Source: Parabacteroides distasonis ATCC 8503 | Lineage (GTDB): Bacteria > Bacteroidota > Bacteroidia > Bacteroidales > Tannerellaceae | DNA length: 64,000 nt | NCBI RefSeq assembly: GCF_000012845.1 | Contig: NC_009615.1 | Location: 1,945,501 to 2,009,500, forward strand | Reading direction: 5' to 3' | Part shown: one piece after another, positions 13,047 through 58,394 of the stretch | Position numbering within the stretch: position 1 is the stretch's first letter | How the letters are laid out: each line of letters starts with the position of its first letter | Notes under the pieces: generated by a model | What the model saw: only the letters and a program-made list of their open reading frames with translations | Told to the model about the DNA's origin: nothing | Databases searched by the model: none | Translations under genes and position numbers: made by a program

Positions 13047-14567
13047 ATGAATAACACATACATATTATTAATGCTTGTCAACACCTTGACAAAAGCTGAG
13101 AAAAGATATTTCCATCTTTGCGCAAACCTTCAAAACGGTGATAAGGTATACCTCACCCTTTTTAATCTAATAGACGCTAATACGTCTCCCGAACAGCTGT
13201 ATACACGCTTTTGTCAGATTCAAGACGGGAAGAGTTTCGAGACCGCAGTCAAACATTTATATCGGGTACTTCTAGAATGTTTAGTTAGACTAAGAGAAAA
13301 ACAGGATGTCCAAACAAGAATTTTCAATTATATATCAAAGGCTGGCGTATTATTCGAACGAGAAATATTTGATGAAGCTTTCATTGAATTAGATAAAGCA
13401 AAAAAATTAGCGATCACTTATGAAAATGATTCCTTGCTTTTATTGATTCGGAGAACGGAACTGAAATACTTAAGCGCTCTTGATTTTAAAACAATCTCAG
13501 AAAAGCAGCTGGTAAACAAGCAAATGAAAATCAATGAAGTATTAAAATACGCAAGAACCCTTAATCAACATACACAGCTATACGATATTCTTAAACACCG
13601 TTTAATTAACAAAGGCTATATCCGTTCCGACAAACAAAAAGAGGATTTAAACGATCTCGTATTGAGCGAACTCCATTTAATCGCAAACAATTCCTACCAA
13701 GGATTCGAAGCGCAAAAGTTACATTTGCTATTCCAAGCCACTTATTATCTTAACTCCGGCAATTATAAATCGGCTATCCGATATTACCAAGAGCTTATCA
13801 ACTTATTTAACGACAACCAACATTTAATATTAAATCCTCCTATCTACTATTTAAGTGCCATACAAGGTATTTTAGACAGTTTATGTATTGCCGGATTATA
13901 TCATGAAACTCCCTTTTTCCTTTCTAAACTAGAAGAATTAACACAAAATGAGTACTCCACTGAATTCATCTTACATCTGAAAACCTTGATATATATCTAC
14001 AAATCCAATAGCTTGTTACAAGCCGGAAACTTTGAACAGGCCTTAGAGCTAAGGGATAAGCAAGAAAATGAATTACTAAAAAAAGTAACATCATTAGGAC
14101 TTGAGTCTCAATTACGGTTATATCTAAGCTTCGCTGTATTAGGCATGTATACGAAAGATTATGTACAAGCTCGCAAATACATGAAAAAGATATTTAGTTT
14201 GGGAAAGTTATTTTGCGCATTTCCTTCTTACAAGATAGCAAGATTGGTAAATCTTTTACTCCAAGCAGAATTAGGCAATTATGATTTCTTTAAGAACGAA
14301 ATTATTTCCATCAAAAGAAACATCCGCTTCGAGAAACAGACTTATATCACAGAAAAGTTAATATTCAAGTTTATACAGGGCTATCCGCTTCCATCATACG
14401 AGAAAGCTAGAAATAAACGCTGGCTACAATACCAAAAAGACATTCAAAAAATCGAACAAGATAAATATGAACGCCAACTTTTAAAGACATTTGATGTCCT
14501 TGCTTGGATTGAGAGTAAATTAACCCAACGGTCGCTGGCAGATATTTTTGCAGAAAAAGCTCACTGA
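13047..14567 (+). CDS. Hypothetical helical-repeat (TPR-like) cytosolic protein
   Basis: A 506-residue protein without a signal peptide or transmembrane segment. It is almost wholly alpha-helical, with TPR-like helix pairs (for example NSGNYKSAIRYYQELINLF near 235 and LLQAGNFEQALELRDKQENE near 335). The N-terminus, LTKAEKRYFHLCANLQNGDK followed by LFNLIDANTS, is a block found in other Bacteroidota TPR-like proteins of unknown role; no enzyme motif or helix-turn-helix was recognised. It is AT-richer than its neighbours. It is divergent from the ribose operon and separated only by the paired promoters, so a regulatory or scaffold link to that operon is possible but unproven. Confidence 0.7.
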   Translation: MNNTYILLMLVNTLTKAEKRYFHLCANLQNGDKVYLTLFNLIDANTSPEQLYTRFCQIQDGKSFETAVKHLYRVLLECLVRLREKQDVQTRIFNYISKAGVLFEREIFDEAFIELDKAKKLAITYENDSLLLLIRRTELKYLSALDFKTISEKQLVNKQMKINEVLKYARTLNQHTQLYDILKHRLINKGYIRSDKQKEDLNDLVLSELHLIANNSYQGFEAQKLHLLFQATYYLNSGNYKSAIRYYQELINLFNDNQHLILNPPIYYLSAIQGILDSLCIAGLYHETPFFLSKLEELTQNEYSTEFILHLKTLIYIYKSNSLLQAGNFEQALELRDKQENELLKKVTSLGLESQLRLYLSFAVLGMYTKDYVQARKYMKKIFSLGKLFCAFPSYKIARLVNLLLQAELGNYDFFKNEIISIKRNIRFEKQTYITEKLIFKFIQGYPLPSYEKARNKRWLQYQKDIQKIEQDKYERQLLKTFDVLAWIESKLTQRSLADIFAEKAH

Positions 14568-15638: not shown

Positions 15639-15644
15639 GTTCTA

Positions 15645-15740
15645 AGTATCTTAGCTTCATCAGCAAAGTATCTTAAGTTCGTCGGCAAAGTAACCTAAGA
15701 TACTTTGCCGATGAAGTTAACTTCGTTGCCGATGTAAGTT
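15645..15740. repeat. Composite intergenic repeat, 22-bp direct units then inverted units
   Basis: Lies between convergent genes. Two 22-bp direct units (15645-15666 and 15667-15688, 18 of 22 identical) are followed by a partial third (15689-15704). The pattern then turns round: 15705-15725 and 15726-15740 are related units in the opposite orientation, each starting TTGCCGATG. GAAGTTAACTTC near 15713-15724 is a perfect 12-base palindrome. The block begins 6 bases after the DJ-1/PfpI stop and ends at the stop of the permease gene. No target-site duplication or coding function was seen. Confidence 0.7.
15682..15711. terminator. Hairpin between convergent genes (bidirectional terminator-like)
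   Basis: TCGGCAAAGTA (15682-15692) pairs perfectly with TACTTTGCCGA (15701-15711) across an 8-base loop. It lies inside the composite repeat between the DJ-1/PfpI gene and the permease gene. No long U-run follows on either strand, so it may stop or protect RNA ends rather than act as a classical intrinsic terminator. Confidence 0.45.
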
Positions 15741-18659: not shown

Positions 18660-18728
18660 GAAAAAACACGTACATGTTTTCCACAAAAGTCGTACATGTT
18701 TTTCGGAAAACACGTACACGTTTTTACC
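18660..18728. repeat. Three tandem 22-24 bp units with palindromic core
   Basis: Units at 18660-18682, 18683-18704 and 18705-18728 share the core CGTACATGTTTT or CGTACACGTTTT preceded by an A-run, so each is itself close to a palindrome. No terminal inverted repeat is evident, unlike the elements at 43113 and 58117. It lies upstream of the small membrane protein promoter and downstream of the outer-membrane protein gene. Function unknown. Confidence 0.65.
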
Positions 18729-41997: not shown

Positions 41998-42969
41998 TCA
42001 TTTATCTCCCTTTATATATAGTTCATATTCATTGTCTTTCTCTCTGTATTTAATGGGTGACGTATTGCTCAGCATAAACAGGATTCGCTCCAAGGATTCA
42101 TCCCGTACCTTAAACGTAAACCGATATTTCTCCGCTATCTCCTTCGGGCATTTTATCTTCCGCCCGAACCAAGGCTCCAGACGGGTAAGGATCATGCTCA
42201 AGCGTTCGTTCTCAAAACTGAGGACACCGTTACGCCAACCCGAATACTCCTCGGCATTAACCGTCTTAACTCTAACGGTATTCGCTTGTTTGTCGAAAAC
42301 CAACATCTCGTTCGGATTCAATATCACCTCACGCCTGTTCTTCATATTGGGACCTCCCAAGCCAATCTTCACCTTACCGTTTAGCAGGATCGTCTCCAAC
42401 TTGCTCTCGGAATCATAATTGAAAACCTCGAAGGCCGTGCCCAAGGCCGTTACATCCATGTTCTTGGTATGCACGGTAAATGGTCTTTCCCGATCTTTCG
42501 CCACGTCGAAGAAGGCTTGCCCTTTTAATTCCACATCACGGGTCTTGCCATCGAAACTCTTTGGGTAGATCAATTGGCTATTAGGCCCCATTCTCACGGT
42601 CGTACCGTCCGATAAGGAAACCGACTCTATGCAACGGACACCGGAGGCCATTACATATATATATTGATCTTCTTTCGTATGAGACCAATAAACTACGCTT
42701 CCTACACCTAAAAGTAGCAATATGGAGGCGGCTATCGCCGTAATCTTATAGACCCAGAGTTTACGGACACCGTTTGTCGCCATTGTCCGGGCTATGATTC
42801 GTTCCCACATGCGATTCCCCACCACGGGATTCACGCGATCCGCAGCCTCGTCCCATTGGGAACGCATACGCTCTTCCACTTTTGGGTCACACAGCAAACG
42901 TTGCCGATCTTTCTCATCCAGAGCATCCCGCATCAACTTCTTCAATATCGTTCTCGTATCTTCGCTCAT
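41998..42969 (-). CDS. FecR-family anti-sigma factor (PUL1)
   Basis: Inner-membrane anti-sigma factor of 323 residues. A cytosolic N-terminal part (1-95) that should bind the ECF sigma factor, one transmembrane helix (about 99-117, ITAIAASILLLLGVGSVVYW), then the periplasmic FecR domain (VSLSDGTTVRMGPNSQLIYP near 145, VELKGQAFFDVAKDRERPF near 170, VTALGTAFEVFNY near 200) and a C-terminal STN-like segment (LSMILTRLEPWFGRKIK near 265). The frame extends 25 codons upstream, but ATG 42969 (MSEDTRTIL) is the natural start. Expected partner: the ECF sigma at 43969-44511, with the HU-like gene lying between them on the other strand. Confidence 0.92.
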   Translation of the reverse strand: MSEDTRTILKKLMRDALDEKDRQRLLCDPKVEERMRSQWDEAADRVNPVVGNRMWERIIARTMATNGVRKLWVYKITAIAASILLLLGVGSVVYWSHTKEDQYIYVMASGVRCIESVSLSDGTTVRMGPNSQLIYPKSFDGKTRDVELKGQAFFDVAKDRERPFTVHTKNMDVTALGTAFEVFNYDSESKLETILLNGKVKIGLGGPNMKNRREVILNPNEMLVFDKQANTVRVKTVNAEEYSGWRNGVLSFENERLSMILTRLEPWFGRKIKCPKEIAEKYRFTFKVRDESLERILFMLSNTSPIKYREKDNEYELYIKGDK

Positions 42970-43292
42970 GTTTATTATTCTTGTTCTATTTATAAATACA
43001 CGCCATGTTTTCCTTCCCCCTATTGGGTGATAAAAAAATTTCACTTAGGTATACAAGAAATATAACGGATCTTCCTTGCTTTCCATCCTTATATTTCCGT
43101 CCTTTGTATTCAATGAAATTGGTTGCCGACGGTGTCGGCAGTATTTCCGACGCCGTCAGCAATATTTCCGACAGCGTCAGCAGCATTGCCGAGGGCGTCG
43201 GCAACCGATTTCATCAAATAGAAACGCCAAAGAGATAAACGTTAAATCTCCGAGGCATCCTATACATTATCCATTTAAATAACGAGAAAATC
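42970..43292. other. 323-bp divergent gap between fecR (PUL1) and HU-like gene
   Basis: Its main content is the 102-bp repeat element at 43113-43214. No -7 box of good quality was found on either strand. A 41-codon plus-strand frame (43113-43238) spans the repeat and would give a run of heptapeptides; it is listed as a finding, not as a gene. Confidence 0.6.
43113..43214. repeat. 102-bp element: four ~21-bp palindromic units between terminal inverted repeats
   Basis: The outer 19 bases (43113-43131 and 43196-43214) are inverted copies with one mismatch. Inside, units start at 43123, 43144, 43165 and 43186, a strict 21-base period. Each has an 18-base near-palindromic core (for example TTGCCGACGGTGTCGGCA at 43123-43140) and a 3-base spacer. 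The plan (10 + four units + 10) equals that of the unrelated element at 58117-58220. Confidence 0.8.
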
Positions 43293-43913
43293 ATGGGAAA
43301 ACCAAGAAGTGGCATCCAAGTCAGTATTTATAATACACCGGGCAATGAACAACGCGGGCCAACATCCTGCGCACGAGTCATCACCAGAGATACCAAACGC
43401 ATGAACGATATATGTGAGTATATTTCCGAATGCTCATCCGTCACCTCCGCCGACATAAAAGGTGTATTGGAGGCACTTACTTCCTATATCGGCAGGGAAT
43501 TATCCTATGGGTACAGCGTGGAACTGGAAGGATTGGGACATTTCTCGCCATCGGTAAAAAGCAAAGAAGTAACGGACCAGAAAGGAAATACTAAATCAAG
43601 CGCTAGCATACACGGCGTTAACTTCCGCTGCTCTCCCCGACTGAAGGAGATGGTAAAAAAGAACGCCCCCATCTTGGTTAAACGGGAAAATCTGCCCAAA
43701 ACGGGAATCGAGGGAAGGAAGGCTAAGATGTTATCTTATCTAGAAAGAAACTCATATATAAATCTCACCGATTACGCCGGCTTGAACAATTGTACCCGCT
43801 ACCGTGCGAGCGAGGATATCAAGCAATTTATCAAGGATAACGTAATAGCCAGCGTAGGATATCGAACACACCGGATTTATGTGCTGCCTGAAAAAGAAGA
43901 CGGGCAAAACTAA
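43293..43913 (+). CDS. HU/IHF-like DNA-binding protein with C-terminal winged-helix-like extension
   Basis: A 206-residue Bacteroidota-type HU relative. The HU fold covers about residues 30-125: TSADIKGVLEALTSYIGREL, then YSVELEGLGHFSPSVKSKE and IHGVNFRCSPRLKEMVKK, the pattern of the divergent HU family. The C-terminal part (about 140-206: RKAKMLSYLERNSYINLTDY, then CTRYRASEDIKQFIKD) reads as a helix-turn-helix/winged-helix module. It lies on the plus strand between a minus-strand ECF sigma gene and its presumed fecR partner. Such proteins often bind near surface-polysaccharide or PUL genes; a nucleoid or regulatory role here is inferred. Confidence 0.85.
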   Translation: MGKPRSGIQVSIYNTPGNEQRGPTSCARVITRDTKRMNDICEYISECSSVTSADIKGVLEALTSYIGRELSYGYSVELEGLGHFSPSVKSKEVTDQKGNTKSSASIHGVNFRCSPRLKEMVKKNAPILVKRENLPKTGIEGRKAKMLSYLERNSYINLTDYAGLNNCTRYRASEDIKQFIKDNVIASVGYRTHRIYVLPEKEDGQN

Positions 43914-43968
43914 AACTTAAGACGCAGTGGCACTTCCGGACTCTACAAATACGTGACCTAGGAAAGCG

Positions 43969-44511
43969 CTAGATAAACCAGATAAGTAACATGATATTTT
44001 TCTTCAAGAACTTCAAGGCTTCGCTGATCTGGTTCTCAACGGTCTTCTCGGAAATATTGAGTTGGAAGGCTATCTCTTTATAGCTTTTATGCTCCTTCCG
44101 GCTTAGATTAAAGATAACCCGGCGTCTTTCCGGCAATTCCTCTATCAAATGATCGATATACTCCCCCAAGTTATAGGCGGTGATCTCTTCCTCTAAGTCG
44201 TAGGAGGTATCCATAGCGGACAAGACCGTCATTTTATAAAAGTCCTCGTTCACGTTCTTCCGGTGATGATTAAAGATCAAGTTACGGGTGATGATAAACA
44301 GAAGACCCTTGAAGTTATCATCCTCCCGGATGAATTCCCTCGACTCCCAGACCTTGATAAACACCTCTTGTACCACATCCTCGGCTACATCCCGATTATT
44401 CAAATAAAGCCCGCAGAAATGATAAACCTTTTCCCAATATTGTTTATACAACATCGAAAAAGCCTCCCTATCTCCTTCTTTCAACGACTTTATAATTTGT
44501 CTCTCTTCCAT
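43969..44511 (-). CDS. ECF-type RNA polymerase sigma-70 factor (PUL1)
   Basis: Directs RNA polymerase to susC/D promoters when released by FecR. 180 residues with region 2 (MLYKQYWEKVYHFCGLYL then DVAEDVVQEVFIKVWESRE near 45, LLFIITRNLIFNHHRK near 72) and region 4 (LPERRRVIFNLSRKEHKSYK then EIAFQLNISEKTVENQISEA near 155). Belongs to the Bacteroidota FecI-like subfamily. Its start is 110 bases from the divergent fecR of PUL2 and about 1.0 kb (past the HU gene) from the fecR of PUL1. Orientation favours PUL1, but either anti-sigma could be its partner. Confidence 0.93.
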   Translation of the reverse strand: MEERQIIKSLKEGDREAFSMLYKQYWEKVYHFCGLYLNNRDVAEDVVQEVFIKVWESREFIREDDNFKGLLFIITRNLIFNHHRKNVNEDFYKMTVLSAMDTSYDLEEEITAYNLGEYIDHLIEELPERRRVIFNLSRKEHKSYKEIAFQLNISEKTVENQISEALKFLKKNIMLLIWFI

Positions 44512-50908: not shown

Positions 50909-50943
50909 GGGTTTTTCCAAGAATAAGCGACTATATACATGAG

Positions 50944-50979
50944 GGTAGGCCCAACCTATACGAGAAGGGAGGGCCTACC
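50944..50979 (+). terminator. Hairpin between susD and the DUF4091 gene (PUL2)
   Basis: GGTAGGCCC (50944-50952) pairs perfectly with GGGCCTACC (50971-50979) over an 18-base loop, in the 123-base gap. There is no U-run, so it more likely reduces read-through or protects the susCD message than fully terminates. Confidence 0.5.
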
Positions 50980-51031
50980 TATCTGGGAGGGGAATCCCAT
51001 TTAAATATGAATTATCTTAAATTTTTATAGC

Positions 51032-58051: not shown

Positions 58052-58394
58052 GATAAAAACGCTACACTTCAGCTAGAATAGTTATTCAAGAGCCTGTTCA
58101 TTCTTCGTAAGATACTGTTACATTCCACAAACCACGGCGTGAACTGTACAGACCACGACGTGAATTATACAAACCATGCTGTGGTCTGTACGATTCACGC
58201 CGTGGTTTGTGGAATGTAACTATATATGATTATCTTTATATATAGTAAATAAGATGTTTTGTCCTATAGTAATCGACCTATTATATTATAGCTGTAACCC
58301 CATATGTATCTTACCTCGAAACCTAACAATCTTTGCCTAAAGCACTAATACCTCTACCTTAAATCTAATGTTTGTTCAGACCTTAAAACTAATC
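58052..58394. other. 343-bp gap between convergent Nudix and DUF1080-PHP genes
   Basis: Its main content is the 104-bp repeat element at 58117-58220. The flank 58221-58394 is AT-rich without a recognised promoter, RNA gene or further hairpin of note. Confidence 0.6.
58117..58220. repeat. 104-bp element: four exact 21-bp units between perfect 27-bp terminal inverted repeats
   Basis: Bases 58117-58143 and 58194-58220 are perfect inverted copies (27 of 27). The element divides exactly into a 10-base outer arm, four 21-base units (58127-58147, 58148-58168, 58169-58189, 58190-58210) and a 10-base outer arm. Units 1-3 begin ACA-A/G-ACCA; unit 4 is close to the reverse complement of unit 1. In RNA it would form a long hairpin on either strand, which suits its place between convergent genes. 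No target-site duplication was seen. Confidence 0.9.

Follow-up and report, generated by a model that had tools for sequence, protein, structure and literature searches.

Short palindromic arrays in Parabacteroides are associated with genes for winged-helix HU-HIG proteins

We analysed a 64-kb stretch of the genome of Parabacteroides distasonis ATCC 8503 (the stretch as a whole is called the window, and the genome G000). Here, a short palindromic array, element A, lies between a FecR-type gene and a gene encoding an HU-HIG protein (Table 1). Element A comprises four units of exactly 21 bp (43122–43142, 43143–43163, 43164–43184 and 43185–43205), each close to its own reverse complement, framed by outer arms that read AATGAAATTG (43112–43121) and CGATTTCATC (43206–43215). 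As read off the sequence, the element is bounded by a terminal inverted repeat of 19 bp with a single mismatch, which confirms the plan of four 21-base units with 10-base arms described in an earlier sequence-only reading of this DNA. TRF reported a period of 21, 3.7 copies and a score of 93, and a single long hairpin was predicted for either strand (z −9.2 and −9.9, 200 shuffles per strand). The HU-HIG gene starts 87 bp downstream of the units.

Table 1. Coordinates of the features discussed, counted from the first base of the window.
Feature	Position	Strand	Remarks
Other-family array	15641–15736		Period 22, between convergent genes
Family D array (AAAACACGTACGTGTTTT)	18660–18726		Period 22, three units
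FecR-type gene, opposite side of element A	41998–43044	−	ORF-caller start; true start may be internal
Segment with element A and HU-HIG gene	43044–43969		Replaced in sister genome G004 by ~141 bp
Promoter-like stretch 5′ of element A	43077–43106 (limits approximate)	+	Flanks aligned by eye
Element A	43112–43215 (~102 bases)		Four 21-bp quasi-palindromic units, 10-bp inverted arms
HU-HIG gene	43293–43913	+	206 aa; HU domain, then a winged helix at the C terminus; proposed to pair with element A
Element B	58117–58220		Four 21-bp units (58127–58210) with arms; one of 12 loci

The HU-HIG clade was reportedly defined in an earlier paper. The product of the gene next to element A matched PF18291 with an E-value of 2.2e-24 (86.3 bits against a curated 26.2); Pfam describes this family as an HU domain fused to a wHTH, Ig or glycine-rich motif. 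The AlphaFold2 model (mean pLDDT 81.9, pTM 0.59) contains an HU part and a C-terminal winged helix, a predicted fold of three helices (139–152, 158–165 and 169–181) and two strands. Foldseek searches with this model returned weak matches, none at E ≤ 1e-3, which include winged-helix regulators, the centromere binder AspA and single-chain IHF.

Element A is present elsewhere in the genome and the genus. A second copy in G000, with 89% identity, is placed between an ABC-transporter-type gene and rpsP (G000:C1:2026119–2026218), and relatives were found in 5 of the 37 other Parabacteroides genomes searched. Element A arrays lie 95 bp upstream of the orthologous HU-HIG gene in four genomes (G008, G012, G021 and G037). 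Within the promoter-like stretch, the orthologous loci read TATCTTTG, of which the window locus is an inexact match. There are also conserved dispersed copies of A: four species (L063 in G012, L064 in G008, L066 in G037 and L079 in G021) have one 73–97 bp from a CYTH-domain gene (MATEIERKF...), and two species (L070, L075) have one flanked by a sigma-factor gene and a TonB-type gene. The sister genome G004 has neither element A nor the HU-HIG gene at the window site and carries an array of another family instead. This replacement array (L225, ~13932–14072) belongs to a TTGCAG..CTGCAA family of period 22, also found at L057:5550 of G000.

We searched for arrays of this plan with a score, S, that combines palindromy at three centres spaced by p with tandem identity and ignores the sequence itself, over periods of 10–35. 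We sampled 464 kb of G000, made up of the whole window plus 20 evenly spaced stretches of 20 kb. At S ≥ 1.3, we obtained 4 arrays of period 21, 19 of period 22, 3 of period 23 and 2 of period 24, plus one each at periods 11, 12 and 14, whereas one Markov shuffle yielded 2 at period 10, 1 at period 11 and 0 at all others. Arrays of similar period therefore exceed shuffles; the lack of such an excess would, by the earlier reading's own account, have refuted it. Lowering the threshold to S ≥ 1.25 gave 32 merged matches, of which a simple ORF caller placed 27 in intergenic sequence and 5 overlapping a called ORF. A coding repeat was rejected because a period of 22 would not keep the reading frame (it is not divisible by 3) and because most matches, the 27 just mentioned, are intergenic. 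By eye, the 32 matches fall into at least 15 different kinds of unit sequence. Five other Parabacteroides genomes (340 kb) contributed 15 array matches, 11 of them at period 22, again with other unit sequences, so the earlier observation of one plan with different sequences holds more generally. We conclude that element A is a member of a class of short Parabacteroides arrays whose units are mirror-symmetric and 21–23 bases long.

Outside the genus, eleven other Bacteroidales genomes from different families (400 kb) gave 3 array matches, two of them inside called genes. At 80 named rpsP loci, intergenic arrays were found in Parabacteroides, Massilibacteroides, other Tannerellaceae, Candidatus Symbiothrix and two Porphyromonas. 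Of the remaining matches there, many are the coding tail of rpsP. A locus named P. distasonis (L145) shares its array with sister genome G004. The window also holds a 23-bp tandem array (GTAGGCCCAACC-type, 50934–50993) that TRF reported and the palindrome scan missed.

Some unit sequences recur. In G000, family A has two loci, family B has 12 diverged loci, and family D is also multi-copy, with 102 units at ≤3 mismatches against 4 for a reversed control. A further copy of element B sits upstream of a second HU-HIG gene (L300). The sequence-only reading held that each locus might have a private unit; families A, B and D show otherwise, but the idea comes close to the truth for each regulator gene. 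It also took a diverged ancestor shared by many copies as evidence against its view, and such ancestry is found within families, as in the 12 loci of B. Its statement that A is unrelated in sequence to the element at 58117 needs qualifying: both elements are 4 × 21 bp and have a unit core like ACGNCGT. Local and whole-array pairing did not separate clearly in complementarity matrices computed for 12 arrays of family B and 16 of family A. Two further segments were recorded in passing. An insertion of ~120 bp with long inverted ends (GCAGAGAAAACGCGTGAAT...) adjoins a B array in G004 (L243, ~1436–1570), is missing at the matching place in L029 and has the appearance of an ordinary MITE. G000 (L033, 1163–1307) has a 145-bp stretch, missing in G004 (L241), that by eye resembles a cobalamin riboswitch.

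We then called arrays, again sequence-blind, within ~250 bp upstream of PF18291 genes in five Parabacteroides genomes. The genes examined were 23/23 in G000, 14/14 in G011, 14/14 in G014, 12/12 in G013 and 38/53 in G037, where 15 weaker matches were left out. The family is markedly expanded in G037, which has 53 matches in a 6.5-Mb genome against 12–23 in the other four. Arrays were present upstream of 18 of the 20 winged-helix HU-HIG genes, compared with 12 of the 81 PF18291 genes without a winged helix and 25 of 634 genes in general (called genes of ≥150 aa in the sampled sequence of G000, G011 and G014). Against this general set, the Fisher p was 2e-21 for the winged-helix genes and 3.5e-4 for the others; in the general set, genes <300 bp from a stretch end were dropped and distances were taken from the called start, and for HU-HIG genes from the domain start. 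Shuffled upstream regions contained an array in 0 of 320 cases. The arrays, their period and position, and their association with these genes are direct observations.

By genome, the winged-helix genes with an array numbered 4/4 in G000, 2/2 in G011, 1/1 in G014, 11/12 in G037 and 0/1 in G013, and the unit sequences of the 11 G037 arrays mostly differ. One of the two misses, L364 (G013), has a degenerate 21-bp series by eye; the other, L387, has no callable array. Selection by length (≥190 aa from the domain start) gave 16/18 genes with an array, and 18/21 in the enlarged set. Selection by winged-helix profile gave 16/17 at first and the 18/20 of the enlarged set, counts in which the profile was built from array-bearing proteins, some of the 20 loci are orthologues, and L399 is the already known A locus of G037. 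PF18291 matches of <125 aa, the size of an ordinary HU, had an array in 0 of 20 cases. Across five genomes from other families, an array was called at 1 of 21 PF18291 genes, none of which had a winged helix.

Arrays near HU-HIG genes of the other kind were seen as well. Similar arrays of AAAACAC..GTGTTTT type, whose unit recalls family D of G000, lie ~155–210 bp upstream of a non-winged-helix HU-HIG gene (MPL.Y.LVKRKDMSK...) in four species (L315 in G011, L314 in G014, L381 in G037 and L362 in G013). G066, which belongs to the order but to another family, has a 22-bp ATGCGCAT-type array that ends 40 bp 5′ of a non-winged-helix HU-HIG gene (L349), and a second array of period 21 and similar sequence at L113:8611.

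Comparison of genomes revealed how the arrays change. HSPs between G000 and its sister G004 are mostly 91–99% identical (matches under 250, 300 or 150 bp were dropped, depending on the comparison), and nine array pairs differ by ~0–6 bases, counted by eye. Two arrays have been inverted between inverted repeats, as in an inverton. The B units at 58127–58210 are inverted in place in G004 (2 mismatches of 84 when reverse-complemented vs 16 direct), and the A array is inverted at one locus between G008 and G012 (2 vs 24). A third candidate, L319 vs L364, was dropped, with 63 direct and 66 reverse-complement identities in 88 columns. In G000 and G004, respectively, unit number is 4 and 3 in the A copy at rpsP, 4 and 5 in B at L023 and 1 and 3 in D at L137, and one 22-bp unit was gained or lost at X68250. 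Synteny changed at two D arrays and at B, where L243 joins the left of L029 to the right of L034. Palindrome-driven change of the arrays therefore occurs, both by inversion in place and by gain or loss of whole units.

Template switching between inverted-repeat arms homogenises the arms and inverts the spacers, according to the part of PMC8604942 that deals with it. Inversion by template switching, as presented in portions of PMC8604942 and PMC8794818, accounts for the in-place inversion of A and B and for arm repair, but leaves the fixed period and the link to a gene family unexplained. It would account for the inversions; a recombinase may also have been their route. One could go further and suppose that template switching and slippage at palindromes build and keep the arrays by themselves, the adjacency to HU-HIG genes being secondary. 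The two in-place inversions, the exact whole-unit changes, the synteny breaks at arrays and the arm homogenisation attributed to template switching (PMC8604942, in part) all agree with this. Yet such a process gives no reason for a 22-bp ruler or for the association with winged-helix HU-HIG genes; imperfect palindromes are kept nearly base for base in the sister genomes, and the class is rare in the 400 kb of the eleven other Bacteroidales genomes. We regard this explanation as unlikely. The sequence-only reading had proposed that a process rather than a common ancestor sets the plan. Palindrome-driven change is real, but process instead of descent is unsupported, since the plan goes with a protein family (18/20), A sites are orthologous and nine sister pairs are near-identical; this explanation is not the best fit.

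The same comparisons bear on mobility. If the arrays were non-autonomous mobile elements, MITE-like minisatellites of the BrickBuilt kind with inverted ends on which a transposase acts, one would understand why they form dispersed, multi-copy intergenic families with inverted ends and why, by eye, the flanks outside the B units are conserved. However, no clean empty site was found for any array among the orthologous segments compared between the sister genomes, one plan is common to unlike sequences, and array position is conserved across species, which makes mobility quite improbable as the explanation.

What kind of site are these arrays? TAnnTTTG, the promoter motif of Bacteroides, occurs within 60 bp upstream of the array at 9 of 18 HU-HIG arrays, against 0.34 expected; the window locus is without an exact box. 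On the mRNA strand, these 18 arrays have 33 G-U and 34 A-C mismatched pairs, and arrays between co-directional genes have 37 G-U and 32 A-C (arrays mostly inside called genes left out). Neither set showed an RNA-strand bias or a wobble preference, as expected if the site acts as DNA. The simplest reading is a DNA site between promoter and gene.

Alternatively, the arrays might act as RNA, forming leader or 3′-end hairpins that control termination or decay. Their predicted hairpins are very stable, and element A falls within the HU-HIG gene's putative leader. Moreover, 14 of 32 arrays lie between convergent genes, against 4.5–6.0 expected (14/33 and 13/33 with stricter gene calls; the 4 or 5 arrays mostly within called genes are left out of these counts). 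The even balance of G-U and A-C mismatches in both sets and the lack of any Rfam match at gathering scores in the whole 64-kb window argue against a role as RNA, which we judge highly unlikely. The excess between convergent genes is nonetheless odd for operators, and we count it against our preferred reading of the arrays as DNA operators, together with the milder excess of arrays at PF18291 genes without a winged helix (12/81).

We consider that element A is probably a DNA operator array, that the adjoining HU-HIG protein is the one most likely to bind it, and that Parabacteroides probably holds several such pairs. Nearly every winged-helix HU-HIG gene examined has its own array, usually of a different sequence, a short way upstream, and element A is therefore most likely a private landing strip of the neighbouring protein. 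As in operator arrays, the array lies upstream of the regulator gene both across paralogues (18/20) and across species (A sites in four other genomes). Under this reading, four mirror-symmetric 21-bp sites would stand between the promoter-like stretch and the start codon of the HU-HIG gene and, being two helical turns apart, would face one side of the helix. The HU and winged-helix product would bind them and tune or repress its own promoter, and may also act at the second genomic copy of A near rpsP. Given the gene–array association, the arrays most likely look alike because the proteins that bind them are paralogues with one binding geometry, and read differently because the specificity of these proteins has diverged. 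Inversion and unit gain or loss would edit the arrays, and near-symmetric sites should tolerate such edits. Protein–array binding, autoregulation, a role at dispersed copies and any role in the nucleoid are what we infer.

Array and protein likeness were compared over 16 pairs. With a phase-aware measure, Mantel tests gave r = 0.39 (p = 0.0017) between array likeness and likeness of the HU part, and r = 0.26 (p = 0.011) when the winged helix alone was used. With an earlier, phase-naive measure the correlations were not significant (r = 0.17 and 0.10, p = 0.10 and 0.20). Dispersed arrays resembled HU-HIG arrays of their own genome in 7 of 248 pairs at similarity ≥3.5, against 4 of 1372 for other genomes, and in 5 pairs against 0 at similarity ≥4; in this comparison the window A array was left out, and 9 of the 27 HU-HIG arrays came from genes without a winged helix. 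At similarity 3.5, 46 of the 51 dispersed arrays sampled in G000 matched none of its four winged-helix HU-HIG arrays. The genes downstream of other arrays (n = 58, judged by eye) were miscellaneous, except for two known HU-HIG genes and one TetR-like gene. The HU-HIG link thus covers a minority of the class in G000. Furthermore, G037 had only one dispersed array in 80 kb, despite its 53 PF18291 matches. The unmatched arrays, the preference for convergent genes and the scarcity in G037 suggest that other binders exist or that the class is wider than the HU-HIG link.

A bolder version of the operator reading is that these are parallel nucleoid systems with private codes, insulated from one another. 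Each HU and winged-helix paralogue would read only its own ~22-bp palindromic array, be encoded behind one copy of that array and organise or silence the chromosome at dispersed intergenic copies, and the codes would arise by paired drift of protein and array, helped by inversion and unit turnover. We advance this only tentatively, as a possibility that may well prove wrong. HU is the classic textbook example of a protein that binds DNA with little regard to sequence. If the proposal is true, a major gut genus would have sequence-specific, lineage-expanding nucleoid or regulator proteins of the HU family. A dozen protein–site pairs in one genome would amount to a natural experiment from which a recognition code might be readable. 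The proposal would moreover explain part of what is apparently a large and undescribed class of intergenic repeats, and it makes the question of one plan with many sequences directly testable.

Several known systems resemble these arrays in part. REP/BIME repeats are dispersed intergenic palindromes with several families per genome, and the Parabacteroides arrays are likewise, but differ in their strict tandem period of 21–24 bp. A RAYT-driven REP/BIME origin was rejected, since PF01797 had 0 matches in G000; across the order, a match is present in 45 of 60 genomes. Of the described repeats that we found, the nearest is BrickBuilt, an intergenic minisatellite/MITE of Porphyromonas gingivalis with a 23-nt unit, inverted ends and long predicted stem-loops. 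The portion of PMC4596501 that describes it presents one family with a non-repetitive leader and tail, IS5-type ends and 1 to 22.8 units. On that partial description (PMC4596501), the arrays share with BrickBuilt the bacterial order, the intergenic location, a similar unit length, inverted ends and stem-loops, but they form many unlike families of 3–5 palindromic units tied to HU-HIG genes. Element A itself was rejected as a BrickBuilt copy: its period is 21 and not 23, and its arms (AATGAAATTG/CGATTTCATC) are unlike the GAGACC-type ends set out in that part of PMC4596501.

Among the literature matches listed, titles and abstract openings contained no description of the arrays or of their tie to HU-HIG genes, and at title and abstract level the matches listed described no DNA target of an HU-HIG protein. 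The protein next to element A belongs to this family (PF18291), and we propose the array in cis as its target. Repressor operator arrays and centromere sites are regularly spaced palindromic sites beside the gene of their winged-helix binder. The layout here is the same, and AspA–DNA entries are among the weak Foldseek matches. What sets the Parabacteroides arrays apart from these systems is the HU fold in the protein and the presence of many parallel families in one genome.
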